A stretch of 64,000 bases of DNA from Diadema setosum (lineage: Eukaryota > Echinodermata > Echinoidea > Diadematoida > Diadematidae). The DNA lies in NCBI RefSeq assembly GCF_964275005.1, contig NC_092685.1:13129571-13193570 (forward strand), read 5' to 3'. The translations under genes and the position numbers were made by a program. Under the pieces are notes generated by a model. It saw only the letters and a program-made list of their open reading frames with translations. It did no database searches and was not told the origin of the DNA. Shown piece after piece: positions 2,296 to 48,128 of this stretch (its first letter is position 1; each line of letters starts with the position of its first letter).

Positions 2296-3235
2296 ATGGC
2301 CTCCGTACTGCTTTATCCGATCGTGTACGGACTAGAGGTGTTCCTGGCATCGGCGCTGAGCACGCAGATCGCGGTCTCGCTGGCCGCCGTGCTGGTGTCC
2401 ACGGCTGCAGTAATCTATTGCCAGCGGACCGTTGCCTTGTGGTGGTCGCTGAGGTCGACGACCACGCAGACGAGAACGAGGTTCATCCGACCTCACGCTG
2501 TGGTGGAAGTAACGGAAGTACGACATGAGCAAACTTCAGACAGACCACGAGATCGGGGAGGGGGTGAAACAGCAGAAAACTCGGAATCTGGCTCGGAAGA
2601 GAAAACGGCAATTCAAGAGAAAGCAATAACAGCGACATCGGCCAAAACTACGACCACGGCAGCCGCCACGCGGCATAAATTAAGTGACGATTCGGAAGGC
2701 AGTACGGAGGGCAGTACCAACGGGGAAGATAGCGAACATCGAAGAAGAAAGTCAAGTTCGGGGAGCAAAGAAGGCCAACCTGAGCAAAGTTGGTTAACCA
2801 GGCAACCGGCGTATATGCACCGTTCGCACTGGGTCGCCAAACCAGCGCAGCCGAGAAATAATCCGCTCATTTTCAAGCCGTCCTTGTTACGACGTGCAAG
2901 CGCGGACAACAATGGTCACCATCAGCATCGCGCCAGCGAGTTTGCGAGGGACGCGGATAAAAAACGCGATGATGATAATCACGAGGCGAGTGAGAGAGGA
3001 GGGGAGACGCCTTCAAAGCCTAACCTGGACCGAAGGTCATCGTTCCCTTCTTCCTTACCCTCTGCAACCTTTAGCTCCCAACCTCCAAGGACACAGACCT
3101 CGTCATCCATGGTTACCACATCTCTGACGTCATCCTCTACGTCATCCGCCAAAGCCACGCCATCTTGTTCGGTGCCCACACTCCAGTCGACGTCTCCTGC
3201 AGACGATCACGGTGGAACAACCGAGAGAGCGAGAG
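2296..3235 (+). CDS. Actin-related gene, exon 1 (signal anchor and disordered linker)
   Basis: Encodes residues 1-313 and the first base of codon 314; donor AG|GTAAG at 3236. Residues 4-21 are moderately hydrophobic and 23-42 form a clear membrane segment (TQIAVSLAAVLVSTAAVIYC). Arg follows at 44, 53, 60 and 62, whereas the N-terminal side has one acidic residue, so by the positive-inside rule the C-terminal side should be cytosolic. The remainder is rich in Ser, Thr, Glu, Arg and Lys with no recognisable fold. Codon use is GC- and CpG-rich compared with the surrounding DNA. The start is the first ATG of the long frame and has an excellent context. Read-through past the donor hits a stop at 3268-3270, which supports splicing. 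Confidence 0.8.
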
Positions 3236-6200
3236 GTAAGTCTTGTTTTCATTGTATTTTATTGATGTAAAATTGCGTATCCACAGTTCAACAATTTCAA
3301 GGGCATTAAAACTTGTTCCTGCTTAGTTGTCATGTTTAAGGGTACCTGGGAGAGAAACAAGCTGGCCTCGACTTGGCGCGCTTTTCGTCGCTCACCTTGA
3401 ATCGCGTCAGACGACAGGTCGAGCAAACAATTTGTGACATGAGGCCGATCGGATCGTTTATCATCGCATGCCATCGGTGCAAGCGATAGTCCTGTTTAAC
3501 GTCAGTACCTTTGCAACGTCAGAGCTTGATTTCTCCCCATTTCGATTTGGCGGATGAATCGCGTCTAAATAGCTTGCATAGCGGCGCCAAGGAAGGATCA
3601 CATGTCATCGTTGGACGCGGTAAATAACCGCTTCATCGTGCCAGACAAAGCCATGATACCAGCTCCAGACATCAAGTTCGGCTCACATAGCTCTCGACTT
3701 GCTCTACAACGTTTGTTACGGCTTCGATATTAACTAATCTCTAGGAATAAGCGCTCAATTCAAGTGTTTTTGCACTATTTAAAACATGTTTTGAAAGAAC
3801 CGGATCAAATTAAGCTATCATTCATTGATCCATTACCAAGGATGTTCCGTACTCACTAAGTAATGATCAATTCGAGCCTTACAAGTATTTCCTCACTGAT
3901 TATTTCGGCTGTCAAAGTTACAAGCAAACTGATGACTTAGAATCCCATCCAAATATGCAAGATTATGTAAATTACTCAAGTTCTACTGCCTCTAATCAAT
4001 TTGGCGATTCATGTTTACTTATGATTTGCGGAAATTTTGGCTGCGTTAAAGGAGAAGCATTATTGAAGGTAATTTTTTAGTCACCAATATTAGTAGCACC
4101 ATAAGTGAGATCATCTAATCTATTTATTTCTTCTATCGTATTTTAAAGAACAAAATACATTCAATTCCTAATTTCTTGATAATTTCTCATATTAAATGAC
4201 ACAAGCAAACGGGTGACGTGAATGAATTAATCAGTCATTAGAATAGTATTATCAAAATAATCGGTAACATTGGCTGAAATGTTGGTACAATGAGTAATAT
4301 TACTTTTCTTTGCATTGTCACGAATAGCATTGTCATTAGTAGAAGTCGTAATCGTCATTATAATTTAGGAATGATTACGTGAACTTTGAATTATTATCTT
4401 CTCTCGTATCATTGTCACTTTTTATCATCATAAAATTACAGTCTTATAAATTAATTGGCATTGACTATCTAGTTCCATCCTCGATACGCTCTGAGAAAAG
4501 TGTTAAGGTCGAGCTGGAACATAGGAAAAGATCTCTAAAGGTAAAGTGCGAAATGTATGGTGTTAGTACAGTGAAGGTATGCGAAAATCTGTAGGATGAT
4601 TGTACTTTACTATACTCCGATAATCACACCTCTAAGATATGCATCCTCGGATATCAAATGAGATCAAACCAATGCCTAAAAGAAGGTGGTTGATCCTGAA
4701 CAAGGACTATTAACAATTTTGCAAACTTTAGAGACTGTGGCTTTTTTGGCATGATAGGCCTGCTATCATAACTGTATCTGCCCGCTGCTCGTTAACGATG
4801 CCGAAAGGAAGAAAACGGTTTTCAGTGTTTTTCTTACCGAGGTTGTGGTTTTATTTTAGAGTGGGTTTCTTTCCTTTTGTCTGTTTTTTTTTTTTTTTGC
4901 TTGTTTGTTTGATGTTTGTTCTCTTCGTGCGTAATATTTCCTTACCGCATGGCGCCTCCGAATATTGTCGCCAATGTCGATGTGTTCGTGAACCGAAGTA
5001 TGAATTCAGTCGAGCGCATTGAAGGTATTTCCGGCTCTGGGCAGTGATTGAGTGGCATAGCGCTGGGGATTAATCTATGAACGACACATCAACAACCTCT
5101 CATCAAGTCATCCTTCATCAACGGCGATCATGTCAAAATGTCGTCGAGATGAGAATGAGATGACTTCAAAGTCTAAACGTATAATGTGACATTTAAACGT
5201 TCGTGACATCCTGCCATCGGGTATACAGGCTAATATGCGATATGGACATGTCTTATGTCATCTTCGAGAAACACATGAACAAACAAAAACAGCAAACAAA
5301 AGAAATATGATTATTTTTTACCTTAACTGCGAATGCACGTCCACAAATATTTTTAGCGGAAGCAACTATATAGTAGATTTTAATGCCAGCATTATTACAG
5401 TCAAGCGAGGGAGGGAAATAGCGCGCAGGAATTAGAGTACGACAGAAACGCATGGACAGATAGAGGGGCAAGCAGGCAGGCAGGCAGGCAGTAGTTGGGC
5501 AGGGGAAGCGTTAAAAGATCAAAGAATATTATCAAAGCTCCATTTCTGGGACATATGCTAATGTTGTCTCAGATCATTTGATTACAAGCTTGAAAATAAC
5601 CTGTTTTTGTAGCTCACAACTAACTGCCCAGCAATGCCAAATAAATCTCTACGATTGTTATGTTTCCACCAGCGGTAACAAGATTACTCTAGTTTCCATT
5701 ACACAGCGATAGCGAAATTTTTGGATTTCGTTAACAAACGAAAACCAGGGCGGAGAATCACTGTAATCTTTGTCGATTTTGACTGAAGACTTGGAATATT
5801 ATAGGTTATTAATAACCATTGTTCAAAAAAAGTAGCAGAAAACAAACGCAGAAAGTACTGCACGACACGAGGACCGTTGAGTGCAAATCATGGGAACTTA
5901 TGGTAGCTTGATTGTCAGTAGATATGGCATACCAATGACCACCTCCACTCGTCCTTGTGGTCATCTCAAACGGGCTGAAATATGTGATTGTGACGTCACT
6001 TACGTTGCATCCCTCGCTGCTATATCCGTCTGGATTAGTCTTGACTCCATATTAAGATATAGTGGAATGTCTCTATTCTAAGGTGAAGTGAAAGCGTCAT
6101 CTCACCGGTATATTCTTACTTGAATTAATTGCCAATAAAAGGTAGGGCTCTGTTTTGAAATGGTGTGTTGTATTTTCTGTCTGCAAATCTGTATCATAAT

Positions 6201-7384: not shown

Positions 7385-7433
<49 letters not shown>

Positions 7434-9612: not shown

Positions 9613-9678
<66 letters not shown>

Positions 9679-10776: not shown

Positions 10777-10819
<43 letters not shown>

Positions 10820-11162: not shown

Positions 11163-11206
<44 letters not shown>

Positions 11207-20474: not shown

Positions 20475-23400
20475 TTATGAAAATGGACAAATAGACGGAT
20501 TGGAAGTTTGGTAATAGATGAATAGATACACGGACAGAAAACTACACATATAGTTTGTTACATAAATGAATGAATAGGCAAATAGATAAAAAGCTTCGTA
20601 GGTTTGTATAGATAGAAAAATGAATAGACAACATGCAGTTTATCAGATATGGTAGGTTGGTCATATTAAGATAAATTTATAGATTCGGATCTATCTATCT
20701 GCCTCATTATAAGTAAACACTTTGTATTTACCTGTCTGTTACCTCTTGACAAGGATATCAGGAGAGGAAGTTCCTGAGGAACTTCCTCAGGAGAGAAAGT
20801 TTTATGCTGTCTTGGCTTGTTTTATCTGTACTCGCATTTTGTGATTATACTATGATGTGTAACAATACTTGAAGCTGTCTATAAGAAACATTTTATACAG
20901 GACTGAAAAATAACAATAGTCAGGTTTACAGCTAAAGAAATTAATCATTTTATGTAAGAAATACAGGTTACACTGATCTAGTGAAAGAGGAGAGAAACAG
21001 TAGGAAAGGAAAAAACGAAAAAAAGCGAAAACGAAAGCTGTCATGGTGATAATATAGAAAGAAAGAAAGAAAATGATTACGTTGCCATAAGTGAGGGTTG
21101 GAAAATAGCTTAAAGGGGCATTCCAGACGATTTTTTATAATTTCACATCATCGAGTACATAAATCAACAGCTCTATGTATGTCTATGGATTTGTGGAATT
21201 TATTGTGGTCCTTGAGCAGAGAAATCAGTACTTTGGTAACACAAAACAAATTACACTGAACAAGAATGATGACATAGGAGCCTCACATAATATATTTCAG
21301 AAATGTAAATTGATAGCAGTGTAATTCCATTTCAATACCATGTGCTCAACAGGTTCACCTGTGTAGATGCATGCTTTCTTCTTTTGTTCTGCTTCCTTGA
21401 GCCCCTACTCATCTGTCTTTATAGTGAGGCTGCCATGTCATCATCCTTGTTCATTGTGATTTTTTTTACAAATTTTGAAAACATTCTTATTTCTCATCCC
21501 AACCACAAAATTCTGAAACTCTGTACCCAGTATAACCAATTTGTATTTGTTCATAATGTAAAAGTCTAAAAATCACCCGAGGTCTCCTTTAAAATTAATA
21601 AGGTGAGACCATAATGGTAAAATGAAAAATAACACTTCGTGTTCACGTTTATTGGTACGGTGGAATTACGACTGAAATAAAAGTCTTTGCCCTCCCAGGT
21701 TGCCTTCAGAAACCAAAAGCAGGAATTAATACCAATCTCCGATAAATCCCACGACCGCACCAGGGCGAGAGGTTAATGTCGTCAATGACCTGCGTGGAAT
21801 GGAGACACGCAGCATGATCGGATCGAGCCCGGTATGGGTCCCGGGTGCCGCGGCAATACACCAAGCTGCGGAAAATGCTGCCCGATGATAACTTTGCAGC
21901 AAAGCTCAAATCGCAGCCATCCGCCATAACAACCACGGGCGCTTTCTGCAACGTCGTGCTCTCGTCGGCGGGCGATCCTCTCTATTCATCGGCGACTTGA
22001 CTCCAAATAGCTCAAGCGCCGGAACATGACCTACATCCCTGCCGCAGCGGAGGGAGAGCAATATCTCGGGATGTTTAATTGACGCAGCAATCTATCTTGA
22101 AGATGTTTACGTCACATGCCAAGCTGTCAAGCGCGCCCATCTCAGCGCGAAGAGACGGCTAACAACAATCGTGGGGTAGTAGCTGTGCCACAAACGTCCG
22201 TGATGATTAAAGATTTGAGCTACGGGGTCAAGCGGAGATAACTACCAGTCGTTTGCAGGGTCGATTTCCGTCACTTATTTCCACTGGCAAGTTGCCAATG
22301 CATCTTATGAATATGCCATGATTGGGATTCTTGAAAGATGGCAAATCTATTTTAAAGATACTTTCCTCTATTGTGTGCAACAAAGTCTTACAATGGAGAT
22401 TTATCATCCTCTTCTTTTTTTTTCTTCCTCTCTCTTGACAGGTCAAGCGAAAGAAGAGTCAAGCAGCGCCAAGAAGCTGGGGCCTGAGACAAGTTGCCCT
22501 TCACTTCCAGTTGTGCCTTCTAATCTAAGCGAGGATTCCACCAAAAGTGCTGCGCAGACAAAGGGTTCTTTACCATCTATCTCTGTGATGGCCCCTGCCA
22601 CCATCCACGAGGAAACCGAGTCAACGGAACCGTCTACGATACCAAAGAGTGTCCCAAAGGTCAAACGTGTAATCCCACGACTCTCCTTTACAACGGAAGT
22701 GACGTCATCTTCTGTGACATCATCCTCTGAACCGTCATCACCTGAATATAAGGAAAAAAGGTGCAAAATACCTACCAAAACGAAAACGCATATAGATCAG
22801 CCGCCTAAAACGAGGGTCATGCCGATAATATGTGTCGTTCCAGAATCTGATAAAAGCGACAGTGAAGGTCAAATGCCAGGTCAAAATACCACACAGAAAA
22901 GTGGCTCTCCTCCTGTCGAGAAAAGCAATGAACTTCATGTACAGTTTTCGGTAAAGCAATCATTTGAACGTCCAAAGGGTGTTCCGCGTAAGGAAAGTCT
23001 GGGCATACCATCTGTTGTTACAGGGGAGATCGCATACCCCGGGGCTCGGAAGAAACAACCTAATCAGAGAGAGTCTGAACCTTTGACAATTACAGTTCAA
23101 CCTCCTACAATTTGTGAAACTGAGCAAGCTAAGGACCAAAATATTACCCAGGAGGTGGTCAGACCTATTCCTCAGAGGACTGACAGTCTGGGAATTCCGC
23201 AGGTTTTCACAGGTGAGGCATCTTTTCCCATGAAACAACCGCAATCTGGAATTCCGGATGATCGAACACTTGCAACTTCTCAACCTAAAAAGCCTCCAGG
23301 GGCCAGGAGGAAAGAAAGTCTGGAGGTCCCCTCTGTTCAGATTGGAGAGGTTTCTCTCCCTCCCGTAGAAAAGACATTAATGGGACCTCCTCAAGACAGA

Positions 23401-24984
23401 CCAGTCAAGCGCCATCGTCCTCGAAGCTTAGATATTCCATCCTTGTCAGCTTCGCCAGCTGTCGACCCTACCGTCGGTGATCCTCCAATGCCCGCTCCCT
23501 CTTCTAAAAGGAAACATGCTTCCATTTTGAAACATGGTAACAGTCAGGAAAAACCAAGTAGGAAGAAGTCCGTCACTTTTTCGCCAACTGTTTCACCCCA
23601 AGAGTTCAAACCGGAGTTCAGCTTCGATCATGAATCTGATGGCGCCATATACGCAGCCCCAAAGCGACCCAAGATATTCCGTCATTACAGCATTGATGCT
23701 TCCGAAAGTTCATACCGAAAGGAGAGGTACCGGGCCTCCGGAAGACAGATTGCAGAAGCAAAGGAAGCTGGCATTCTCTTCACGGAGGACATCCCAAACA
23801 TTACTGGTGTGGCTAGGACTAACGACGACAATGAAAACAGTGCTATTCATGAGCTTGATTCACCTATGGAGACAAGGTTGGCCTCAGCTGAGGAGAAGGA
23901 TGACGACGAGGAAAGTGATGATGTGTTTGTGAGTACCAGGTCTATTGAATTAAGCAATGCCAAAGCTCGTTTTCTTGCCGCAGGAGGTGCTAAAGCAGTG
24001 ATGTCCGTATTGTGCACGCAAGACTCATGTGACTCCCATGGTCAAGGGACCAAGTATTCTAGTGTTGACCTCCTCGAGGCGGAAGCGAAAGCTATTTCAC
24101 ATTCTTTGACCCCGCCAAGTGAGCCCGAGGAGACGCCTTCCGGCGGTGATACTGCAACTGAAGACATCTGTGACCAGTCACCGGCGGAACCGTGGAGATC
24201 TTCCAAAACAGCATCAACCAAAGAGAAGTCGTCTGGCATCGTTGTGTTGCAAGACACCGAGTCAGCCAAAACTACCACTCTCGCCTCTCCGGTCAGAGAA
24301 AGTAGCGAGAGGGGTGCCAGTCGGTTCTTTTCCAACGAAGACTTGAACCTCCGTGCGTCACTCTTGTTTGTGGAACCCGTGCGTAGTTCCATGGAATCAG
24401 ACCTTTCGGAGGGTCGCTTCAGCCATTCCTCTGAGGAGAGCGAAGGCTCAGTCAACGACGAGCTGGATGTTGTGCAGCCTGTGTCAACGAGTGCCAAGAG
24501 CAGATTCTTCCTGTCGTGCCAGAACGTTGAACCAGGACCCAAGATCCATCGCATCCATAGTGACGACATTTGGACGACCCCAACGATACCAGAGCTTCCA
24601 GAGCCTCTAGGTGAGTTACATGAACCGAGGATGGGGATATTGTCTTGATATGTTTGCTGTTGATATAAGTGACGCAAAGATTCTATGGAACGTTTAATGA
24701 AAAAAAAATAACATGAAAACAGTAATTTCTTTATTGTCACAAAAACATCCTGGAAAAAGCATTTCTCAAAATATGGTATTGTTTATGTAATATTGTGCGA
24801 TGTCTTGTTAATATGATTTTTGTTAACCATAGTTATCTACCCCATTTGGAGCGCGTAAATTCACTTTCAACCAAGCGCACCCTCTGGGCACTGTTCCAGA
24901 TATCACTCAAGCTGTAACGTTTCAAAACAATGCGGTGTTCTCAAAGAAAACAATATCATATACTTATATTATAAATATAATATA

Positions 24985-31000: not shown

Positions 31001-33125
31001 CAACTGGTAAAAAACAATCACATGGTCGACGTGCGCGGCGCTACCACTTCCGGAAGTTACACCGACCCTCGCACAGAATTGGTCGGAGTTTCTTCCCACG
31101 ACCGTCTTGTGGACACAAGGGTCGTGGTAAGATATGCATTAATTTGAAGTTTAATTGCCGTGCCATAAATTTTTACTCCGACTAGAAATACGTCTGAACA
31201 TGGCTATGGTGTCAAATATGATAGTGGCGGAATCATGAGAATCACAAAGTAGGCTTATTGAAAATGATCTCTTAACAAATATCGTGATGTAAATATTATG
31301 TGTAATCATTTACAGTCATTTGTAATGTACTGAATTGAAACAAACATAGATACAAAATGCGATAAGATTCACAACTTGAAATCAATTAAAAAAACGGATA
31401 CGTGTACGATACGGATACGAATAATGAAACATGTTGACGTCAGTTCCAGGTGTTTTGGTGATGCTATTGTTGTTGTTGTTTTTTTGTCTTAAGTGCCATT
31501 TTTGTGTGTGAATGTGTGTGTGTGTATGTGTTATGTTCTTGGCGGTGCATCAAAACAGCGGCATGAATAAATGTAAAATACGAACGAAATGATGATAAGT
31601 TGCAAAGCTCCATAAAATGAATGTTTTACTTTGACACCTTTGATATCGAAAAAAAAAAAAAAAAAACCAAAACCGGGCAATCAGAAATGCTTTGCATCCA
31701 AAATATGGTAGACGCCTTGCATATCTGCTCTTTGATATTAACATATAATTTGATACATTAGATGATATCAATTGCCGGCCAGAGGACTCAATCGGTGCAG
31801 GACTTGCTGGCATACAAATTTCACCTTACAGTAATCGCCTTTGCCCCAGCTCTGCGGATGTAGTCATCATGCTAAAGAAAATCTCGAGTGGAAATCGGGA
31901 GAAGGAGTTGGGGGGGGGGGGGGGGCTTGCCATGTAGGTGATTGCTCTGTGAAAGATGAATGCGTGGCGTGCATGGTGTTGCTGGCCGACACACACGTGA
32001 ACCTGTCACAAGAGTTCAACTTCCTCATGAGTTGCGCCACGGGCCATAGGTTGGTACGTGTCGCCGGCCACTGACTTCCGCGGCTGCTGCTGTCAAGCGC
32101 CAATATAAAGCGATTCACTGGACAGCAGCTTCCGCGTGTAGCGCGAACCTTACGGCGTATTACGATAACGAGCAGAGCAGATGACCCGCCCGCGAGCCAG
32201 ATTTAGAATCCTGCCTATACGTGAAAATAGCAGTCCATTTATTTCCAGATGGTTATATTTAGCCGCCAAGGACGGCTTGATATACGAGATTTTTAAACTT
32301 GGGTACTTTATGGGCTCGGCTGGCGAAAATATGCCTGGAATTAGCCGAATGCAACCGCACTTTTTCACTGAAGCGACCATACGCCCATAAAGGACTACGA
32401 ACGTACAGTAAGCCTGCAGAAACTGTGTGAAGAAAATATGACATGGTACTAAATGTCATCGTCTTATATTGTCTCATGTTGCTTACAGACGTGCCGTCTT
32501 CAACTGTTTAATTGAAACCAGCTGAGGGTAGCATTATTCACATCTGTTAAAATCGATGTTTGTTTTTCAAACGTGTTATCGCGAAGAAAAAAAATTACTT
32601 AAAAAACTAAGCATGTTGTCTGTAGAAAGCGAATCATTGAAGTTGTATCTCAAGCCTGAAATTCAACCCTAATCAGGAGGCAAGACATGATAACTTGACG
32701 TGTTTTTTTTTTTCAAAAATTATTTTTCCCAATTTGCAAGTGTATTTTTAGCAACAGACTTATCTACTTAGATTGTTATACAGAGTTCAACGCGAGGTTT
32801 TTAATGTTCGGCAGGTCTGTAGGAATGAGAATGAATAGTCCTGTACAAAGCACGATTTTCGTTCACCAAAATAAAACGTCATAACGACTCATTTTATTCT
32901 CATATTAACAGACGTATAGAAGTGACTTTTAATGGTTACCCAGTCAACATATTCATCAAGATATATACAAACTTCCAAAACATGAAAGTACCAATGTTTT
33001 GCCTTTCTCCATTTTCGTTCTTCCTCTCTCCATCCCCCTCTCTCTCCTTCAATCTATCAATCTACACACACACAAACACACACACACACACACACTGATG
33101 CGCGCAGACACACACACACACGTAC

Positions 33126-33178
<53 letters not shown>

Positions 33179-37870: not shown

Positions 37871-37903
<33 letters not shown>

Positions 37904-39123: not shown

Positions 39124-39156
<33 letters not shown>

Positions 39157-42100
39157 CTGCATTAGTATGTGGTTCATTACTCCTCTAACTAATTCCTTCA
39201 CTCCATTCACCACTAGCAGTGACTGTTTGATGCTTGAATACAGGCAGTAGCTGGTACGGCTTCCTCGAGCTCGACCCGAACAAGCCGTCGGCAACGAACT
39301 TCGGCTTCGAGCTCGTCGAGAGCACGGACAACGACCTCTCGGCCGCGTTCAGAGGCGACGACGATACCGGGGACGAGGTTGAGTACGATGGCGAAAGGAG
39401 AGAATGCGAGCCGGAGAGGAAAAGACGTTCGGAGGGGAGGTCAAGTGAAACCGACGGCAGGGAGGCGGTAGTGACCTCGTCATTCTCTGTCCCAGAGTTT
39501 GTCGGAGTCGGGACTGGGTCAGAAAAGGATGACGTCATTCGTCACCAGTGGCAATTAGCGACGTCATCAGGTATGGTTTGTGACGTCAATCTTTACGAGA
39601 AGCATTAAAAAAAAGGAAAGTCCGGTAGCCATAAAATCTTTCCTCAAAGATATTATGTTGGAATGTTTCTGGTATATATCGAGGGGCCTTGTGTAAATAG
39701 AAGAAAAGGTCAGGTTGTGAACAAATGGATAGCGTCGGATATATGTCGGTACAAACAGGCCTGCTGACAGTTAATGAGGCTAGATACCGCCTCTGCCATA
39801 GCCGAGATATTTACTGAGGGAGGAAGATTGCGCAGAGAGAAGGTCACTGTTACCTACGTGTAGAGGATGATTGGTATCAAACCAAGGATCGGGTAGATGT
39901 CTTTTTTTCATCATCTCTTGATATTCCCCGAAATAAAGACGTTCAGCTGTCTAAAGATGTCTTCTACGTTGCTTTAATGGTTGTTCGTCTTTATTCATCT
40001 ATGAACAGTTTTGAGTTCGTTTTCTTTCTGATGCATGTTTATTTCGAGTTAGGTCGAATAAACCGTGTGTAAGGACAATGTGTTCAGGAAATCACCTTTC
40101 ATTCATAGTCTATTAGCCTATCCAACGCCCAGCTTTCCTCGCAGTTGCTCAGATTGTACAATGATTAATTGTCTATATGATGTGATATCTTGTCACTTTC
40201 CTGCAATTTTCTTCCCTTAGAACAGATAGAACTGACTCAATTTTGTGTAATCATGTGTATTTGAAAGTTTATTTTCAGTTCCATTTTTTTTTTTGGGGGG
40301 GGGAATGAAATGAATGAAATTAATTTTTGGATTCTTTCAGTGATCACGTACAAAAAGTACGAACACGCACAAAATGATAACCTTCCACAATTCTTCTTCA
40401 AAGAGAGCCGTCAAGAAACTAAGACACGGTGAGCCCGAACATAAATATGGCACAAGAATTCTGATATGAATAGAAAGACTAACATGATGTCAGGTCAAAA
40501 ATAGAAATGAGAAACGGGAATGGAATTGCACACACAAAAAAAAAAAAAAAAAAAATGGGTGAACTTGATGTAAATACATTTGAGTTCTAAACTCAAAATC
40601 CATATCTCTATTCCTTCAATTAAACACTCAAACCCACAATAGTATCACGAATAGACAATAACAGTAAAACTGTCTGTGTTTTGGAGAATGGAAGGAAGAA
40701 GTGATATCTTTCATGATCCGAATCACGTGATACTAGTATATCGTGAAAGTAAGAATGGACACTGATTAGGTCCTTTAATCGACTTTAAACAAAAATCACT
40801 TTTCTACAATGATCAGCCTCTTCTGCATCAGCACCGCCTCCACGCCGGCTCTACAACACGCCCGTCATCATCGACAACGGTTCAGAGGTGATAAAGGCCG
40901 GGCTCGCCGACGGTTCCACTCCTTCCGTGACCATGCCTGCAATGGTCGGTCGACTCAAAGAGGACATCGAGAGCTTCCGTCAACGCTCCAATGTGTACGT
41001 TGGTGGCGCACTTTCGAAGAAGTATGGACTGGTGTGCGTCAACCATCCTATGTCAGGTGCCACTATGATTTTTTAACGATTTCATTTTTTTTTTTTTTTG
41101 TCTGACAGTAGAAAAACGAAGAAGGTAGAAAATAGATGAATGACTACCTCTCCTTATATCATCATCAGACCCGTGCTTGTCTTGAGTTTGGTTGTAATAA
41201 GGTGAGAATTATAATTTGATCTATCTGCCTTTCTATTTATCATATTATTTGTAGTATTAATAGCAGCATAGTTACGATATTACCCTAATGGTAATGATAA
41301 TAATTCACATGCGCGCTCGTTCACACACAATCAGATATATGCATATCTTACATACACGTCTACCAGACTTCTATTCACAAATCAATATTGCAATTCAGGG
41401 TCCCAGAAAGTCTCATTAAAGAGTTCTGTGAGTGTACGTCAAGCAGGCGTTGACAAATTATGTTCCTTCAACAGGATATTCGTCTCATTGGGTGATGAGG
41501 AGTTATGGTGAGATCCATTCATTGCCGTGACAAACAATGCAATAGAGGAATTCACACTTTCCACAATGCATACTTTTGTAGCTTTTATCTGATTATGAAA
41601 ATTAGAATGAAATGAATGTATGCAATATACGGTATGCACTTAAGATGCATCGATGGCAGTAAAAAGTGCTCGAAGTATATGATATTGCGTTAGTAGGCCT
41701 ATCCCCTGTTTCAAGAAAGAAGCTACCACTTTCATTTTAATATCAATGATTTAAATGTAATTCGGGTTCTTGAGCCAGCACTCGTTCGGTCTTAACTACA
41801 CGTACTTTGATGGGTTCGTCTTAACTCTTCTTTTATGCTATTATCATCATATATATAATTATTATAATATTCTAAATCACTTTAACTCGCGCGATGTCGC
41901 AGATGGACTGGTGGACAGCTGGCCGGATCTGGAGAAGGTCTGGGATCACGTGATCAGGGAGGAGCTGAACGTCTCATGGGAGGAACACCCGATCTTGTTG
42001 ACGGAAATCGCCTCGGCTCCACGACGGCAGAGGGAGAAGATGCTAGAGGTGACAATAATAGAATATTGACCTTTGACTCCAACCTTCATTAAAAGAAAAC

Positions 42101-42629
42101 CCATTTTGAGGCGCAGTATTCAAATTGGCAACGCTGTCCTCAAAGCTGCAATGCTAAGATTTATTTTTTATTTGTTTGTTTATTGATTCATTTGTCTATT
42201 TGTTTATTTATTTTTTATTTATTTATTGCAATTTCTCAGCATGTACTCGCATCACTCTATTTTTTTTTTTCAAGTTCCTTACTTGCAAAAGAAGAATTCA
42301 GGAACATTTTAATGGTCAATAGGACCGTCCAAATATGCTGTTAAATGGGCAAAGTCTCTGCAAGGACCAGTTTGCTGTCATATAATAAATGCAGATGGTT
42401 CTATGAATTTGCCTTGCTATTTGGTCCTTTCTTATATAGTACTCGCAGTTGCAGGGATTCCTGCATGGCAGGTCGATATGGGGACAATGTGACATGACTT
42501 TATAATAAAACATAACGGTATTCCAGGCGGTGATGTGTGTATTCTGTGTATGAGATATTACTATTGTTTTTCCTTTTCTTCCTTCTTCTCTGTTCTCCTC
42601 CTAGTCTCATCTTCCCCGTCTTGGGATAG

Positions 42630-42661
<32 letters not shown>

Positions 42662-43248
42662 ATAATCATGTTCTGCTGATTAATAAATGTGTATTAATTT
42701 CCTCCTTTATCGATGAGTACCTTGTGACTTAATAATTATTCTAGGCCATTACCATTTAGCGGTCTTTCTCGGTCGCTTGCTTAATGTGTGTTGTAGCGTG
42801 TGTGGGGGCGCTGTGGCATAGTGGACTCCTGGGCCCTGTTTCATAAAGCTGTTCATAAAGTTACCAACAACTTACGAGCGACTGGTGATCAGTTCTAATG
42901 TGCTATACTTATCAGAATTTCCATAATTCAACACAAGAACTGATCACCAGTCACTCGTAAGTCGTTCGTATATATAGTTGTATGAAACACCCCCCTGACT
43001 CCCGTTCGGCAGACCCGAGTTCGAATCCCGCCCAGTGCTTACGTCCTTGAACAAGATGTTTTTACCCACTATATCCCTCTCGACCCACGTGTATAAATGG
43101 GTACCTGGCAACGCTAGGATAATAATAATAGCAGGGCCCTCTGGTATAGCAGTGGCAACACTGAAGAGACTACCCTGGGTAAATAAGACCTTATTATTAT
43201 ATATTATTATTATCATTATTATTATTATCGTTATTGTTATTATTATTA

Positions 43249-43285
<37 letters not shown>

Positions 43286-43319
43286 CATTATTATTACTAT
43301 TATTATTATTGTTATCATT

Positions 43320-43411
<92 letters not shown>

Positions 43412-46400
43412 CATTATTATTATTATTGCCGGTCTCCAGACTCTCTTTGAGCAGTATCACGTCCCAGCGTGTTACGTCATCAACCAGGGGGCCCTAGCAC
43501 TCCACGCCAATGGGGAGACGTCGGGTCTGGTGCTGAGTAGCGGCAGCGGCGTGACCGAAGTGATCCCGGTTTACCAGGGATGTACCGTGTCCAATGCAGT
43601 GGTAACGGTAAGTCTATAAAAAGAGGAAAAACTTCTGTCAAATTTAATGTAGCAATATGAAGAGGAACAACAAGGCATTCATATTGATATCAACGGATAC
43701 TTCTGAATAAAGTGACTGGATTATTGCTAAGTGTTTGAAAGGATCCCCGAAAAAAAAATAATGGTCTCCGTTCCAGATAGAACATGATGGAGAATTTTCA
43801 GACTAGTACATGAATTGAAAAACATAAAACAAAAACACCCATACTTTTGTATAGATTTTCTTTGAGCAATAAGAATAATCTTTGTACTGATTTTGATGTT
43901 TCTGTTGAAAAATTAAGTATCAAGATGAATTGAATTGCTGTGGGGGAAACAACATTAGCACTATAGATGTTGACCAAAATACATTTTGACTTCACGCTTC
44001 TCAGGTACATTGTAGTGTCCTACTCTTTGCGACTGGCTCAACGCAACCTCTTATTACCCCCCAAGTTCCATAGTCCGAAAATAAAATAAAGTTCTTTAAT
44101 CTTAAAATGAAAATACCTGCGTACTTATACCGAACTTTATCTCGTTTGTGGAATTACGAACCGTCGGAATAACGAACCGTCGGAATAACGAACCTTCGGA
44201 ATAACGAAGTGACTGTAACCTTTTTGCCAGGATTCTTCATTCTGTAATGAGAAGGATGTTAGGCCTGTTGTCATTTGGAAGAATTATTTATTCCTTTCTT
44301 TGTACCAACGGAGTCTGAAAGAGACAACTGATACTTCCTGCACAATTATTCTCAGACAACTAAGTGGGTTGAAGGATATGAGAATTCTCCGTTCAGACCA
44401 TAGGAAAAATGCTTTAAAGGGTGACGACGTCATGACGTAACTCAAGTATTGAACATCATTGTCACAATAATCTAAGATAAACACATCGTCGTGCAGAGAC
44501 ATCCAAAGGTGTAGAGTGCTTTAAAGAGCGAAGAGTGTGCATTTGGTTAATCACTGAGGATAGCCAAATTAATGTGGCAAAGAGCATTATTTTGCTTGAT
44601 CGGTCAATATTCATACACAGGTCCGAGATGCCTGGGAGAGAGAGAAAAAAAAAGATATTTCCATTAAAGATTGATAATTCTTTATGATGCCCTGCGTCGA
44701 TGTAACACGTGACTGTGAAAGGTTGCTATTACTGAACTCCATACTCTTCATTCCATATAGCTCGACATAGCGGGAAAAGGAGTAACACGAAAGCTCCAGC
44801 GAATCCTGATGGACGAGCACTCGTTCACCACGTCGACTCCGTCCGATCACCGCATCGTAAGGGAGATGAAAGAAAACATGGCTTACGTCTGTAGTGGTAA
44901 GGCGCTTATCGGCACTTCGTTGTTCGTTTGTACACTATATGGATATGTACAAGTGTGACTAAATAATATTAAAAAAAGGAGCAAACTTAAACATCATCTC
45001 TGCACCATTTCTTCCTGAAGTTAACGAGTTTGTCTCATTTTCTTAACACAAAACCGATGAGGGATTAAAGAAGACAAGGCGATAACATCATCTCTGTGTT
45101 ATCAATCTTCTCAATCTGGATGATTTGTAGCAATATTGAAACTACCCTTTAAAATATAGGCCCCATGGGTTTGTTTTCCACGCCGTGGGTCTTGTTCATG
45201 ACCATAGGGATTTTATAGGCACAAATCTCTTTGGTTATGACCAACAGCGCGGCAATGAGGTGACGAGACCTTGCGCTCCCCCTCCTGGTTGCGCGCTCAC
45301 TTCTCCCGCACCGTTATAAACTAAATGCATGACTTGTGGTCTCAAATTAGTTGGTAGTGTAGAATATAAATATATCTAAGCCACCAGGCCTGACTCAAGT
45401 CTGCATGCCGTAATGATTACGTGTAACAATGTCATTTGTCCCCTCGTATTTGTTACTCAAATTCTAGTCGTGTTTCTCAAAGTCGCATGTACACAGTAAA
45501 CGATATGGATATTTATACACTTACAGTATTTGCTCACAATAAATATTTCACTGGAAGAGAGATTTGCAAAATATGAGGGATGCTGAATTCGAAGTGTGCT
45601 TGAATTACTAACCAAACGGTAAACTGATACCTTTTCACAGTTTCCATTCCAAAGTCCTTAAATGGAATATAACAATTATAACACTGACACGTAAAGCTTG
45701 GCAAGGATAGGTACCCAACTCGGATCTATAGAGCATGATCGGTCAGGAATAAGAAAAAAAAAACTGCATTAAGCATTATTTGTTTCTGACTGCTTGCACA
45801 ATTGAATTGTGGATTTAAGTTAAAGTTTCTCTTCAGTCATGTTTCGAAATTATTGATGTCCTCCCACTAGAAAACGAAACGAGCAGAGTAAAAGCAAACA
45901 CATAACTGTCATCTCACCAAAAAAAAAATAATAAATAAATAAAAAAAATAAAAAATATGTTTCCTATAACTTCCTATACCAATCCAGATATAATGATACA
46001 TGGAAATATTTACGGAGAGTATTATGTTGTGGCTGTTTTGATGACAGCTCGATTTTACAAACGCAAACGTGTTTGTATATAAACGTGTGTCTATTTGTCT
46101 GTTTGTTGGCTTCGATTGTGGCAGATTTCGAAAAGGAGGTGCAGCAGGCTGATCTGACGACTCCGATCAGATACACCCTGCCGGATGGGTCGGCGGTGTC
46201 GCTGCGACGACAGGACCTCTTCCACTGCACCGAGGCGATGTTCAGACCCGACCTTTTCAGCCCTATGCAGCAGAGAGGTTTGCTCGACGTGATCCAGGAG
46301 TGTCTTAGCAGGTACAGCGCCCTTTTTGACCCATACACTCCATTTTTGAAATATGGATTTAGAATTCAAGTTCATTTTCAAATCATGTCAGAGTTCTTGC

Positions 46401-48128
46401 AATGAACATAACAAAAAACAAACAAACAAACAAACAAACAAACAAAAAACAACAAACATGAAAATGATTTAAAAAAAGAAATACAGTCATTTTCAAGCTC
46501 GACGTGATCCAGGAGTGTCTTAGCAGGTACAGCGCCCTTTTTGACCCATACACTCCATTTCTTAAATATGGTTTTAAAATTCAAGTTCATTTTCAAATCA
46601 TGTCAGAGTTCTTGCAAAGAACGTAACAAAAAAAAAACCCAACAACAACAATAACAAACAAACAAACAAAAAACAACAAACAGGAAAATGATTTAAAAAA
46701 AAAGAAATATAGTCATTTTCAAGCTGTACATTCTAACATAACTAAAATTACATGTACATTAGGCCTACAATAGTCCGAGACAGAATAGGAAAAAAAGCTA
46801 ATTTTTAGTTATTTAGGACAGAGAGAAAAAAAAAAGACAGTGATTGAATGATTGTGTAGGATGTATTGGTATGGAAGGTAGACGGGTGTCTTCGAATATG
46901 TACCGATGATAGCCTGTCGAAAAATAAAACCTATGAGGTAAACCTGTATATTGGATGTACAAAAAGAAGCCAGTCCGTCATGACAAGAATATGATGATAA
47001 TCTCTCAAAGTCCCTGACATCTTGCAATCGATGCCTACTTTTATTCAGTAATCATCGGTCAATATACACATTTCAGTTTTGTTGCGCAAGTTGAGGGGTA
47101 TAATAAAGATGCATACTAGCGTAGGATTCTTTCATGTTAATCATTTCTTTTGCCAAAAACATTACAGCGATGGTATCAAATAATTAGAGTATTATTCAAT
47201 GACATGCCATCATCAAAGTAAAATATGACAAGAAAAAAAGAAAGGAGAGATAAGACTGGGATATCTACAGCAGTGAGATAATCTATAAACTGCACTACTG
47301 ACATTATTAGTTCTGTTCTAAGACTCTTTGAAATAATGTCGGGGACAACCGTTTAAATTGTTAGCCAGTTAAACTGGGGTTTTCACCCTCCAACAATAGG
47401 GAGCTTTAGATTTTAGACGCGCGGACGTTCAGAGGAAAAAACATGTTCTGAGCATGCGCAGACGTGCACGTCAAGTTGATCTATTTATAGCTTGCGTCGT
47501 CTGAGTTTTTCACTACGCGTTCTGGGCTATTTTTACGTCCGCTCAATTTGCGACGTAGAGAACTACTTCATGCACCGATCATATGGGGACGCCATTTTAT
47601 TTCTAGACGTTGCGTCCCAGCATAATCTAAAGCAACCTTTCATCACGACGCAAGGGAGAGGAGAACACCCAACGCACTCGTCGTCTCAAACGTCCGTGCG
47701 TCAAAATCTAAAGCTCCCTAATAATGCCGGTAAGAGGTCTTAAATGTACCAACGTCAGTCGCGAAAACCGCTTCTCTGAATACTAGTACTTGCTCCTAAC
47801 CAGTCCAACAGATCTGCCCCATGACCTTTTCACTGTCCTTTCTCTTTCTAGGTGCGACAATACCTTCCTGGAGAGTATCGACCCCACCATTCTCCTGGCT
47901 GGAGGCAACACCAAACTCCGCGGCTACGCCGAGCGGCTGCAGAGCGAGATGACGGCGCGCAACATCCGGAGGACGGTCGTTGCCCATGACAACCGCGACA
48001 TCACCACGTGGATCGGCGGTGCCATCCTCGCCTCCCACTCGAGCTTCCAGGAGCGATGGGTCAGCAGTCAGGATTACGAGGAATGCGGGGCACGTCTTGC
48101 ACACAAACAGACGCTCAGAATATCGTGA
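2296..48128 (+). CDS. Membrane-anchored, N-terminally extended actin-related protein (10 coding exons)
   Basis: Joined coding sequence: 2296-3235, 22442-24610, 34262-34351, 39244-39570, 40817-41056, 41903-42048, 43440-43607, 44761-44896, 46125-46311, 47852-48128. Every junction has AG/GT borders and matching phase (1,1,1,1,1,0,0,1,2), and the total of 4,680 nt gives 1,559 residues plus TGA. Order: hydrophobic signal-anchor-like segment (about 4-42), low-complexity Ser/Pro/acidic linker (about 60-1180), actin-family domain (about 1188-1559, close to actin's 375). The actin fold is supported by collinear motifs: DNGS phosphate loop, YVGG, LLTE, REKM, LDIAG, FEKE, LPDG, AGGNTKLRG and WIGGAILAS. 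Conventional actins lack the extension. Function is unknown; I infer a cytosol-facing actin-like module tethered to a membrane. Additional small exons in the long introns cannot be excluded. Confidence 0.85.
7114..7190. repeat. Composite G-run / alternating CG and GT tract
   Basis: G14, then alternating CG (GCGCGCGC GGCGCGCGCGCG), then (GT)n, then G13. Alternating purine-pyrimidine CG/GT is the classical Z-DNA-prone sequence and the flanking G runs could stack. Confidence 0.85.
7387..7430. repeat. (GT)n microsatellite
   Basis: About 22 uninterrupted GT units. Confidence 0.95.
9595..9740. repeat. (CA)n/(TA)n microsatellite
   Basis: A CA run leads into a long TA run with a few interruptions; it produces spurious Tyr/Ile-rich open frames on both strands. 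Confidence 0.95.
10764..10830. repeat. (CA)n microsatellite
   Basis: Continuous CA dinucleotides with two CACG interruptions near the end. Confidence 0.95.
13653..14621. mobile_element. Non-autonomous hAT-like DNA transposon
   Basis: Termini are inverted repeats: CAAGGGCGCCGGAAG on the left and, in reverse complement, CAAGCGCGCCGGAAC on the right. The flanks are near-identical 9-mers, CTTATCAAT (13644-13652) and CTTATCATA (14622-14630), sharing the first seven bases, consistent with an ~8-bp target duplication. An 8-bp duplication and CA(A/G)GG-type ends are characteristic of hAT elements. The interior has no transposase. It carries G18, C14, A20-21 and C12 homopolymers near both ends and degraded palindromic blocks at 14.3-14.5 kb containing the reverse complement of a GAGCGAAGCGA motif found again at 35-38 kb. 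Confidence 0.65.
15875..15945. repeat. (GAAA)n-type purine tract
   Basis: Polypurine run of GAAA and A-rich units on the + strand, giving Lys/Glu or Phe/Ser pseudo-frames. Confidence 0.9.
19236..19677. mobile_element. TTAA-flanked long-inverted-repeat element
   Basis: TTAA borders both ends (19236-19239 and 19674-19677). The ends are inverted repeats beginning AGGGGGAAATC; the arms stay recognisable for about 130 bp on each side, including the shared run GAGTTCAAC and GACATTTTGAAGTTT. No coding capacity. TTAA target duplication is the signature of piggyBac-type insertion, so this looks like a MITE of that type. Confidence 0.7.
20364..20475. repeat. (GATA)n microsatellite
   Basis: About 25 GATA units with one interruption (GAAAGATAGGTA). 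Confidence 0.95.
21110..21592. mobile_element. TTAA-flanked inverted-repeat element, second copy type
   Basis: TTAA at 21110-21113 and 21589-21592. The left end reads AAAGGGGCATTCCAGACG and the right end, in reverse complement, AAAGGAGACCTCGGGTG, each followed by ATTTTT, so the terminal repeats are imperfect. Interior is AT-rich without coding potential. Same general design as the element at 19.2 kb but a different sequence. Confidence 0.55.
21700..22200. promoter_or_regulatory. CpG-rich island before exon 2
   Basis: About 500 bp of GC- and CpG-rich sequence in otherwise AT-rich intron, ending some 240 bp upstream of exon 2. It could be an enhancer or an alternative promoter. An in-frame ATG at 22318 reads without a stop into exon 2, so transcripts starting here could make a form without the membrane segment. 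No promoter motif decides the matter. Confidence 0.35.
22442..24610 (+). CDS. Actin-related gene, exon 2 (long low-complexity region with repeats)
   Basis: Encodes residues 314-1036. Acceptor is a pyrimidine-rich TTGACAG at 22435-22441; donor CTAG|GTGAGT at 24611; phase 1 on both sides. The region is Ser/Pro/Glu/Lys-rich and predicted disordered by composition. A motif of the form R-x-(K)-x-S-L-x-(I/V)-P recurs four times (Ser499, Ser562, Ser606, Ser642), three of them followed by a V..(T/I)GE tail. A PP1-docking-like sequence KSVTF lies at 689-693 after R-K. A second short motif, A-(K)-(A/S)-R-F-(F/L), recurs at about 820-825, 939-943 and 998-1004. RxxS contexts suggest basophilic kinase or 14-3-3 sites. 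The single 2.1-kb open frame and the splice phases support it as coding. Confidence 0.85.
24979..25035. repeat. (TA)n microsatellite
   Basis: TA run with CATA interruptions. Confidence 0.9.
26025..26553. mobile_element. Foldback (imperfect inverted-repeat) element
   Basis: Two arms of roughly 150 bp are inverted copies: GTGCAGCCGTCGCTGAATGA near 26133-26152 pairs with TCATCCAGCGATGGCTGCAC near 26438-26457, and the flanking AAAAGTTATAAAATTTCAAA pairs with TTTCAAAAGTTAT. A GCATTATGCAC-type motif marks the inner ends. No transposase. Boundaries are approximate. Confidence 0.5.
27676..27979. mobile_element. TA-flanked MITE A (in duplication copy 1)
   Basis: Termini GGCGTTTTCACATCAGCCCG and the inverted complement ending in CGGGCTGATGTGAAAAAGCC, one mismatch in about 21 bp, flanked by TA on both sides. 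Sub-terminal blocks repeat GAAATAGCGCGCTATTT-like palindromes. About 304 bp, non-coding. The twin lies at 29790-30093. Confidence 0.75.
28464..29095. mobile_element. MITE B with GGTCGGAG sub-repeats (in duplication copy 1)
   Basis: Ends are inverted: AGCTGTGTTCAGACG on the left and ACGTCTGAACATGGCT on the right, followed inward by GGTCGGAGTAA and its complement. The interior repeats GGTCGGAG and GTCGTGG several times in both orientations. An 80-codon basic open frame (28833-29075) lies inside. Its relationship to any known transposase is not recognisable. Twin at 30574-31205. Confidence 0.65.
29790..30093. mobile_element. TA-flanked MITE A (in duplication copy 2)
   Basis: Second copy of the element at 27676-27979, carried by the tandem duplication rather than inserted independently. 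Confidence 0.75.
30574..31205. mobile_element. MITE B (in duplication copy 2)
   Basis: Second copy of the element at 28464-29095, with the same 80-codon internal open frame at 30943-31185. Confidence 0.65.
33061..33175. repeat. (CA)n followed by (TA)n
   Basis: CA dinucleotides interrupted near 33094, then an uninterrupted TA run from about 33126. Confidence 0.95.
34262..34351 (+). CDS. Actin-related gene, exon 3 (acidic Ser-rich mini-exon)
   Basis: 90 nt between TTTTACTCAG and the strong donor A|GTATGT. Read in the phase left by exon 2 it is open and encodes residues 1037-1066, beginning EIDSQDEESTS and continuing with Asp, Glu, Ser and Thr. It preserves phase 1 for exon 4, where A + GC makes Ser. 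The acidic Ser/Thr composition matches the adjacent linker and offers CK2-type sites. It can be skipped without disturbing the frame. No homology recognised; support is splice sites, frame and composition only. Confidence 0.6.
34697..35040. repeat. G/C-homopolymer-rich repeat fragments
   Basis: Three G runs of 10 to 15 bases and a C run interleaved with GGACCGGCGCAGCC and GAGCGGAGCGACC. The block near 34975-35040 is an inverted relative of 14.32-14.37 kb, sharing the GAGCGGAGCGACC motif and the GGGTGTATCCCTCCCAC-like stretch. Confidence 0.6.
35225..37060. repeat. Tandem satellite array, 150-180 bp unit
   Basis: At least ten diverged units. Each has GCGAGCGAGCGAAGCGAGCG, then TTGAAAATTTTGACATTTTA, CAGTCCAAAAACTGCCGTTT, a TTTTTCGCTTTGGAAATTAA block, a G run of 4 to 14, GCGCACCGGGCGAAAACTG, and CTGGCAGCAACATCAGGAGA. 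Unit starts near 35508, 35680, 35846, 36026, 36198, 36508, 36660, 36812 and 36977. Some units are internally shortened. Open frames of 60-110 codons through them are by-products. Confidence 0.9.
37411..37820. repeat. Second block of the same satellite
   Basis: Two and a half units most similar to 36198-36600, including the shared shortened unit and the CCAGGTGAAAACT variant. It is bordered by direct repeats of about 50 bp beginning TAGATTTGTCTGCCTAAACA (37365-37413 and 37825-37874). Confidence 0.85.
38141..38215. repeat. Hairpin with GTCGGCC(T/C)...GGGC arms
   Basis: GTCGGCCTCATGCCAAAAGG on the left and its complement GGCCCTTTTGGCATAAGGCC on the right, one mismatch, about 30 bp loop. It could be a very short MITE. 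Confidence 0.75.
39122..39160. repeat. (TTG)n microsatellite
   Basis: Ten or more TTG units upstream of exon 4; read on the - strand it gives a poly-Gln pseudo-frame. Confidence 0.9.
39244..39570 (+). CDS. Actin-related gene, exon 4 (aromatic motif plus charged linker)
   Basis: 327 nt, acceptor TTGAATACAG, donor CAG|GTATGG, phase 1 both sides. Encodes residues 1067-1175. The first part, SSSWYGFLELDPNKPSATNF, is unlike the rest of the linker: hydrophobic and aromatic, and it could be a short binding motif or pack on the actin domain. The remainder is acidic then basic (ERKRRSEGR) and ends shortly before the actin domain. Very GC- and CpG-rich relative to the flanking intron, as in exon 1. No family recognised. 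Confidence 0.75.
39571..40816 (+). other. Intron 4 (1.2 kb)
   Basis: AT-rich, with a T11-G10 run near 40286-40305 and an A21 run near 40535. No exon or clear element seen. Confidence 0.75.
40817..41056 (+). CDS. Actin-related gene, exon 5 (start of actin domain, phosphate loop 1)
   Basis: Encodes residues 1176-1255. The actin domain opens at about Tyr1188 with PVIIDNGSEVIKAG, which aligns with actin's first phosphate loop: Asp11 and Lys18 equivalents (Asp1195, Lys1202) are kept, but actin Gly15 is Glu1199. VGR and YVGG are present, yet the segment between them (LKEDIESFRQRSN) replaces the hydrophobic DNase-I-binding loop. Ends VNHPMS, matching actin's YPIE position. There are two in-frame acceptors, at 40815-40816 and 40830-40831, differing by five residues. 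The donor TCAG|GTGCCA is weak but the phase and the actin alignment across the junction fix it. Confidence 0.88.
41057..41902 (+). other. Intron 5 (0.85 kb)
   Basis: AT-rich; nothing recognised beyond a T17 run right after exon 5. Confidence 0.8.
41903..42048 (+). CDS. Actin-related gene, exon 6
   Basis: 146 nt, acceptor GATGTCGCAG, donor GAG|GTGACA. Encodes residues 1256-1304, opening DGLVDSWPDLEKVWDHVI, which lines up with actin's HGI..NWDDMEKIWHH, then EEHPILLTE and REKMLE, matching actin's [21 protein letters not shown]. Enters in phase 1, leaves in phase 0. A clear, well-conserved actin segment (subdomains 1-2 boundary). Confidence 0.92.
42806..43195 (+). mobile_element. tRNA-derived SINE, interrupted
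   Basis: GGCGCTGTGGCATAGTGGAC resembles a pol III A box, and CGAGTTCGAATCCCG at 43016-43030 matches the B-box consensus GGTTCGAANCC closely. A MITE separates them. The body contains TGGGTACCTGGCAACGC and the 3' end runs into TTA/ATT repeats, a usual SINE tail. Family name not assigned. Confidence 0.65.
42830..42996. mobile_element. MITE with GGGCCCTGTTTCATAA ends
   Basis: Left arm GGGCCCTGTTTCATAAAG and inner ACTTACGAGCGACTGGTGAT; right arm is the inverted copy ending in GTATGAAACACCCCC. Central palindrome AGAACTGATCACCAGTC with its complement. Flanks share GACTCC, a likely target duplication. A relative with GGGCCCCATTTCATAAA ends lies at 59031-59189. Confidence 0.7.
43186..43428. repeat. 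(ATT)n microsatellite
   Basis: About 240 bp of ATT with interspersed GTT and ATC. Produces poly-Ile, poly-Leu and poly-Asn pseudo-frames that are not genes. Confidence 0.97.
43440..43607 (+). CDS. Actin-related gene, exon 7 (phosphate loop 2)
   Basis: 168 nt, acceptor CCGGTCTCCAG, donor ACG|GTAAGT, phase 0 both sides. Encodes residues 1305-1360, starting TLFEQYHVPACYVINQG, the counterpart of actin's MFETFNTPAMYVAIQ. Gln1320 corresponds to catalytic Gln137 of actin. The second phosphate loop reads SSGSGVTE where actin has DSGDGVTH: Asp154, Asp157 and His161 equivalents are Ser1337, Ser1340 and Glu1344. Glycine and Thr positions of the loop are kept, so the fold should form, but metal coordination and ATP hydrolysis are probably impaired. 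Confidence 0.93.
43608..44760 (+). other. Intron 7 (1.15 kb)
   Basis: AT-rich, no recognised element apart from a tandem CGGAATAACGAACC(G/T)T triplet-like repeat near 44160-44205. Confidence 0.8.
44761..44896 (+). CDS. Actin-related gene, exon 8
   Basis: 136 nt, acceptor TTCCATATAG, donor GTG|GTAAGG, leaves phase 1. Encodes residues 1361-1405 beginning LDIAGKGVTRKLQRIL, aligned with actin LDLAGRDLTDYLMKIL, then SFTT and IVREMKENMAYV, aligned with IVRDIKEKLCYVA. Subdomain 4 helices are intact. No gaps relative to actin beyond a few residues. Confidence 0.93.
44897..46124 (+). other. Intron 8 (1.2 kb)
   Basis: AT-rich with A/T homopolymers (A9 near 45755, A/TAAA run near 45920-45958). No element identified. 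Confidence 0.8.
46125..46311 (+). CDS. Actin-related gene, exon 9
   Basis: 187 nt, acceptor GATTGTGGCAG, donor GCAG|GTACAG, leaves phase 2. Encodes residues 1406-1467. Contains DFEKEV (actin DFEQEM), YTLPDGSAVSL (actin YELPDGQVITI) and CTEAMFRPDLFSP (actin CPEALFQPSFLGM), then the LLDVIQECLS helix. All parts of subdomain 4 and the hydrophobic plug region are present. The last 30 nt plus donor are duplicated 215 bp downstream in the intron. Confidence 0.93.
46282..46722 (+). repeat. 215-bp tandem duplication including the exon 9 end and splice donor
   Basis: Copy 1 starts at 46282 and copy 2 at 46497, both opening GCTCGACGTGATCCAGGAGT. Copy 2 keeps the last 30 coding bases, the GCAG|GTACAG donor, the CCATACACTCCATTT block and a (CAAA)n run, with a few substitutions. 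Copy 2 has no acceptor upstream, so it is a non-functional intronic fragment unless used as a decoy donor. Confidence 0.9.
46312..47851 (+). other. Intron 9 (1.5 kb)
   Basis: Holds the duplicated exon 9 fragment and the MITE at 47397-47720. Confidence 0.8.
47397..47720. mobile_element. MITE with TAGGGAGCTTTAGATTTT ends
   Basis: Left TAGGGAGCTTTAGATTTTAG and right TCAAAATCTAAAGCTCCCTA are inverted repeats extending about 30 bp, including GCGCGGACGT. TA is present at both borders. Interior CpG-rich, non-coding. Confidence 0.8.
47852..48128 (+). CDS. Actin-related gene, exon 10 (C-terminus of actin domain)
   Basis: 277 nt from a strong acceptor (TTTCTCTTTCTAG) to TGA at 48126-48128. Completes Arg1468 and encodes to residue 1559. 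TILLAGGNTKLRGYAERL matches actin TVLSGGTTMYPGIADRM with the nucleotide-binding Gly-Gly kept (Gly1485-Gly1486). WIGGAILASHSSFQERWVS and QDYEECG match actin WIGGSILASLSTFQQMWIS and QEYDESG. The end is HKQTLRIS instead of HRKCF, so the conserved C-terminal Cys-Phe is missing and three residues are added. Confidence 0.95.

Follow-up and report, generated by a model that had tools for sequence, protein, structure and literature searches.

Actin has been described as a borrowed subunit of PP1 enzymes that end a stress response (PMC4394352, PMC4394351). In the PPP1R15A/B (GADD34/CReP)-PP1-G-actin eIF2α phosphatase, the membrane-associated PPP1R15 protein docks PP1 by an RVxF motif, and G-actin is needed for specificity (PMC4394352, PMC10743859), with PPP1R15A reported to contact actin residues Y169 and M355 (PMC10743859). 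Two docking motifs occur together in Inhibitor-3, whose structure delineates the SILK and RVxF pockets on PP1 and in which a short basic spacer separates a SILK-type motif from the RVxF motif downstream of it (PMC10066265), and in Rif1, for which the SILK-RVxF pair was found by sequence before PP1 binding was demonstrated (PMC4448129). Among proteins with N-terminally extended actin folds, filactin carries a domain described as close to conventional actin behind a long extension, and in the Dictyostelium actinome survey no member is reported to have a predicted transmembrane helix (PMC2441452). Drosophila Arp53D, a diverged actin-fold protein confined to its lineage, is localised by means of an N-terminal tail; this tail comprises 40 residues, and the word "transmembrane" does not occur in the main text of that report (PMC8291977).

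The gene described here lies in a 64,000-nucleotide stretch of Diadema setosum DNA (the window), and its predicted product combines a putative N-terminal membrane anchor, a long tether with a putative PP1 docking segment, and a C-terminal actin-like domain. It shares with the PPP1R15 phosphatase a membrane-associated N terminus, an RVxF motif, and an actin fold in the complex, but the actin of that enzyme is a separate soluble subunit, whereas the actin-like domain of the window protein is covalently attached and diverged; these likenesses suggest PPP1R15 as the closest working parallel, by analogy only. Phactr proteins (RPEL, G-actin, PP1) also couple PP1 docking to actin, but the window protein has an actin fold and not an actin-binding motif. 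The presence of both SILK and RVxF is shared with Rif1 and Inhibitor-3, which to our knowledge are otherwise unrelated and possess neither an actin fold nor a membrane anchor. POTE-actin resembles the window protein, as does filactin, in the position of the actin domain after a long N-terminal extension, but in our alignment the POTE domain is near-conventional. At E ≤ 1, Pfam reported Actin alone in the window protein, and neither the PPP1R15 core (PF10488), nor RPEL, nor the ankyrin repeats that POTE contains. In the openly licensed literature we found no paper pairing "actin-like domain" with RVxF and no membrane-anchored actin-related protein, echinoderm fusions included (titles and abstract starts for the latter).

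Splice phases join 10 exons on the plus strand into one frame encoding 1,559 residues (window positions 2296..48128; Table 1), reproducing exactly both counts of the preliminary description. All nine introns are of the GT-AG type and phase-consistent, their donors matching 6 to 8 of the nine positions of the 9-base consensus. The start codon at 2296, with A at -3 and G at +4, stands in a good context by the Kozak rule, and no in-frame ATG lies between the upstream stop and this position. Because the frame of exon 5 is closed by a stop two codons upstream of the exon, and because there is no methionine between residue 964 (exon 2) and residue 1215, which is already within the fold, the actin fold could not be translated alone from exon 4 or 5, given the exons seen; exons 3 and 4 contain no methionine at all. 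The earlier proposal that one gene extends from exon 1 to the actin exons agrees with the splice phases and with the gene models of five other species, to which annotation methods may be common. The protein parts encoded by exons 1 to 4 matched only their own locus among the 30 genomic places scored, and when 10 other open frames of the window were compared with Pfam, the sole match was the frame containing exon 7.

Several features of the noncoding sequence were also noted. Reading through the end of exon 1 (3236-3270) adds about 11 codons before a stop, which would give a short membrane protein isoform devoid of the PP1 site and the actin domain. In intron 2, a segment of about 2.1 kb is tandemly duplicated (27439-31685); of the stretches compared, two of 300 nt are 100% identical and one of 210 nt is 95% identical, and the duplication may have arisen recently or may stem from the assembly. 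A 175-nt segment that includes the last part of exon 9 with its donor recurs 215 bases downstream with 87% identity (46282-46671), a copy that could act as a decoy exon end. A long imperfect ATT-type microsatellite (43190-43435) ends just short of the exon 7 acceptor and keeps a long reading frame open across the intron.

Table 1. Coding exons and sequence features of the predicted protein, in window coordinates
Feature	Position	Strand	Basis or remark
Exon 1 (coding), residues 1-313, holds the anchor	2296..3235	+	Ortholog alignment
Hydrophobic segment, residues 15-43 (VFLASALSTQIAVSLAAVLVSTAAVIYCQ)	2338..2424	+	Kyte-Doolittle hydropathy
Exon 2, residues 314-1036	22442..24610	+	SL[GDEN][IV]P repeats, SILK/RVxF segment and AKxRF motifs all here
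SL[GDEN][IV]P motif, four copies, three followed by V..GE, residues 496-655	22987..23466	+	
SILK motif, residues 674-677, putative PP1 docking	23521..23532	+	
RVxF motif KSVTF, residues 689-693, putative PP1 docking	23566..23580	+	
AKxRF motifs, residues 818-1010, and acidic serine-rich S.LF...V..S.ES element	23953..24531	+	
Exon 3, 30 codons	34262..34351	+	31/31 residues identical to D. antillarum
Exon 4, acidic linker, without methionine	39244..39570	+	
Exon 5, start of actin domain, phosphate-binding loop (DNGSE)	40817..41056	+	
Exon 6, actin domain	41903..42048	+	
Exon 7, actin domain; Q137 retained, D154S, D157S, H161E	43440..43607	+	
Exon 8, actin domain	44761..44896	+	
Exon 9, actin domain	46125..46311	+	
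Exon 10, C terminus of actin domain and stop; L349H and M355R (barbed-end cleft)	47852..48128	+	

The signal-anchor-like start noted previously was recovered by hydropathy as an N-terminal hydrophobic segment and is conserved in all five full-length orthologs. The 19-residue Kyte-Doolittle maxima of the window protein lie at residues 25 (1.99) and 4 (1.73), and these are the only two separate windows of this length that exceed 1.3 in the entire protein. In all full-length members, 14 to 15 residues are followed by approximately 29 mostly hydrophobic ones (E[LV]FLASAL..), so that hydropathy predicts a helix of bilayer-spanning length in the window protein and 5/5 full-length orthologs. Within a 20-residue anchor block, 15 positions are invariant in Lytechinus, Asterias, and Saccoglossus, making it the most invariant of the nonoverlapping alignment blocks; the best actin-domain blocks in these three species are two with 14. 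In the urchins, where the second, weaker hydrophobic window begins at residue 4, the region may form either a single long helix or a hairpin. The flanking charge in the echinoderm proteins with an anchor, -1 before and +3 to +7 after the segment, supports a cytosolic location of the tail in these proteins, whereas the charge in Saccoglossus, -1 on either side, lends it no support.

The tether of more than 1,100 residues was found to be mostly disordered by prediction, as had been proposed: 10 of 11 windows of 100 residues fall below the charge-hydropathy line for folded proteins, with residues 355 to 454 above it, and the tether of the Amphiura ortholog mostly has pLDDT values below 50 in its predicted structure. 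SL[GDEN][IV]P occurs four times in the window protein and in Lytechinus, three times in Patiria, twice each in Asterias and Saccoglossus, and not in the truncated Amphiura model. Strict AKxRF copies number two each in the window protein and Lytechinus, three in the starfish and the brittle star, and four in the acorn worm, and in these six proteins some copies are followed by the acidic serine-rich element. Four short helical islands with pLDDT above 50 interrupt the Amphiura tether (block values up to 62, i.e., low confidence), three of them located within AKxRF repeats or an element following such a repeat, and the fourth within a glutamate run. Neither the repeated motifs nor the SILK/RVxF segment appeared in the preliminary description, and at E ≤ 10 Pfam gave no match for five sequences representing the anchor, the docking segment, and two stretches with AKxRF.

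A SILK-type motif followed by KSV[TSK]F, the two starting 15 to 18 residues apart, is present in the window protein and in 5/5 full-length orthologs, with PILK in place of SILK in Saccoglossus, and [GSP]IL[KR] has a single site in each of these proteins. Additional RVxF-like sites occur in the tether of Lytechinus (one) and within the actin domain of both starfish (one each); the truncated Amphiura model lacks SILK, and its single RVxF-like site is unrelated. When the tethers of the window protein, Lytechinus, Asterias, Patiria, and Saccoglossus (PILK allowed in the last) were each shuffled 20,000 times, the ordered pair within 10 to 60 residues arose in approximately 0.12 to 0.16% of the shuffled sequences, frequencies that must not be multiplied because the five tethers are related; RVxF alone arose in 37 to 45% and is thus common by chance. 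Identity to the window protein at aligned positions of the SILK/RVxF block is 100, 84, 72, 69, and 46% in the five orthologs, compared with 98, 67, 40, 45, and 45% for the actin domain and 97, 62, 29, 31, and 23% for the tether before the block. By this comparison, conservation of the docking segment equals or exceeds that of the actin domain in each of the five orthologs, barely so in Saccoglossus (46%, with 26 of 32 positions aligned, versus 45%).

The strongest support for the putative docking segment comes from a blind comparison with the PDB. A five-species profile retrieved a single entry at E ≤ 10, 8sw5 (E = 0.0039), which was also the only match at this threshold for the Patiria segment (E = 0.034), in a gapless alignment that spans both the SILK-type and the RVxF motif. 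The PDB name of 8sw5 is "PP1-specific Phosphatase-Targeting Peptide version 1", and its identity is taken from that name; no paper describing it was found in the openly licensed literature. The window protein's own segment did not recover this peptide, its best match being an antibody (E = 0.83), and the Saccoglossus segment had no match in the PDB, while the 13 chains matched by a control tether block, none with an E value below 0.19, are named as antibodies. With SILK preceding RVxF in a region predicted to be disordered, the protein would belong among the PP1 interactors that carry both motifs.

The complete actin fold that had been placed at the C terminus is borne out by Pfam and by the confidently predicted structure of the corresponding domain of the Amphiura ortholog. 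Pfam Actin (PF00022) covers residues 1159 to 1524 of a nine-exon version of the protein (1,529 residues, without exon 3) with 293 bits and E = 3e-87, and the best 60 of 164 PDB sequence matches are all named actin. For the structure, 37 hand-picked rows (31 of 40 eligible actin proteins and six orthologs) were aligned, and the likeness of the predicted domain to actin was partly helped by the inclusion of the actin rows; the 50 entries listed for the full-fold comparison contain no prominent Arps, which is uninformative given the listing. Residues were compared with 71 hand-chosen conventional rows, after 12 divergent or odd rows of 83 had been dropped; these are predicted proteins, many probably merged gene models, and only their actin domains were used. 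Under the actin residue numbers and roles that we assume (D154, H161, D-loop, cleft, contact sets), Q137 is kept, D154 is replaced by S or T and H161 by E in 7/7 family rows, and L349H and M355R of the barbed-end cleft are likewise found in 7/7, where seven rows amount to six lineages because the sequences from the window and from D. antillarum are nearly identical. Identity to conventional actin is 0 to 14% in the D-loop (14 positions) and 14 to 43% at the lower longitudinal contacts, versus 36 to 48% for the whole domain, whereas the upper longitudinal contacts (38 to 67%) and the barbed-end cleft overall (32 to 63%) are not clearly below this average. On balance these values argue against filament contact, though not decisively. 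Judged by these residues, the domain departs from conventional actin in catalytic residues as well as in filament contacts; it probably binds nucleotide but neither polymerizes nor hydrolyzes ATP as actin does.

The search of other echinoderms that had been recommended, for the same N terminus fused to an actin domain, recovered the architecture there and also in a hemichordate. With residues 500 to 1529 of the nine-exon protein as the query, three proteins were retrieved, from D. antillarum, Lytechinus pictus, and Asterias amurensis, each of which has every part of the architecture. Patiria miniata and the hemichordate Saccoglossus kowalevskii were found with the actin region of Asterias as the query, and the actin region of Saccoglossus in turn retrieved an Amphiura filiformis model of 780 residues that comprises the C-terminal half only and, having neither anchor nor docking segment, is probably truncated. 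Identity between the D. antillarum and window proteins is 97 to 98% in most regions, rising to 100% in the anchor and docking blocks. The L. pictus ortholog bears the name "mucin-5AC-like", probably owing to its Ser/Thr-rich tether. In a tree of actin domains, with rows chosen by hand (27 of 83 nonfamily domains, few true Arps among them, and seven family rows), the family forms one clade (support 100/100) with Saccoglossus sister to the echinoderms, although the bootstrap had not fully settled and the placement of Amphiura inside the clade is unsupported. It follows that the gene probably arose before the echinoderm-hemichordate split. No relatives outside Ambulacraria, chordates included, were recognized among the matches listed (in one list, 120 of 200), and this range is a lower bound, because the searches rest on shared 5-residue words, used a partial query, and were judged on listed matches only; the Asterias query missed both urchins.

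We consider it reasonably probable, from motif and residue conservation, that the protein is a PP1 scaffold anchored in a membrane, with a head that derives from actin, binds nucleotide, and does not polymerize. As a single-pass (or hairpin) membrane protein, it would fix PP1 at one membrane by its anchor and recruit it via SILK and RVxF in the long cytosolic tail, the flexibility of which would give reach to the actin-like domain; this domain may select or present substrates, or sense a partner, as G-actin joins PPP1R15-PP1. Since the family differs from actin at the positions corresponding to Y169 and M355, its arrangement is no simple copy of the PPP1R15 geometry, and substrate choice by the head, if any, would proceed through a new surface, with the invariant H349 and R355 marking a candidate site. 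More tentatively, the protein can be viewed as a self-contained actin-PP1 holophosphatase scaffold, its nonpolymerizing actin-derived domain built into a membrane-fixed targeting subunit; the remodeled cleft (H349, R355) would then hold the protein's own acidic repeats or a substrate, and the phosphatase, with an origin before the echinoderm-hemichordate split, would be independent of the cellular actin pool. A search of the genome itself with PF10488 and the human PPP1R15B core gave no match, in a run in which no positive control responded; if PPP1R15 is truly absent from the lineage, the window protein gains interest as an eIF2α candidate.

Emphasis could instead be placed on the head. In a membrane adaptor, the actin-like domain would perform the main function by engaging regulators of actin or acidic repeats of the protein itself, the PP1 site being minor or separate; the new invariant H349 and R355 look as expected for a new ligand, and some tether repeats are acidic and serine-rich, but the conservation of the docking segment relative to the actin domain, even if marginal in Saccoglossus, renders this reading doubtful. 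The preliminary description had envisaged a membrane-bound capper, scaffold, or nucleator. A complete actin fold on a membrane anchor, with upper longitudinal contacts and an overall cleft near the domain average, would suit a capper, nucleator, or filament anchor that adds to actin filaments, and Arps joining filament ends can diverge too; the divergence of the D-loop and lower contacts and the invariant L349H and M355R nevertheless speak against capping and nucleation, and we regard such a role as unlikely. The scaffold survives from that proposal, with filaments a less likely client than PP1.

It is highly improbable that a membrane/PP1 gene was merged with a neighboring actin-like gene during annotation. 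Many long "actin fusions" across eukaryotes do resemble merged gene models (for instance actin joined to a nucleoporin, a P450, or an argonaute), which surveys of such fusions should take into account, and the Amphiura model covers the C-terminal half only. Against a merger, order and motifs are alike in 5/5 full-length models from urchins, starfish, and the hemichordate, the phases fit over all 10 exons, and the first methionine of exon 5 lies inside the fold, behind two exons that have none. As far as gene models can tell, the actin-like architecture with its putative membrane anchor is real and conserved.

The family is an uncharacterized protein common to sea urchins, starfish, and acorn worms. 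It represents an old, conserved addition to the divergent Arps, the roles of which are described as mostly unknown (PMC8291977). If the PP1 scaffold reading is true, an actin fold and PP1 docking are encoded together on a membrane, so that a partnership otherwise formed with a borrowed subunit would have been made permanent, and the family would provide a natural model for the contribution of the actin fold to PP1 enzymes.
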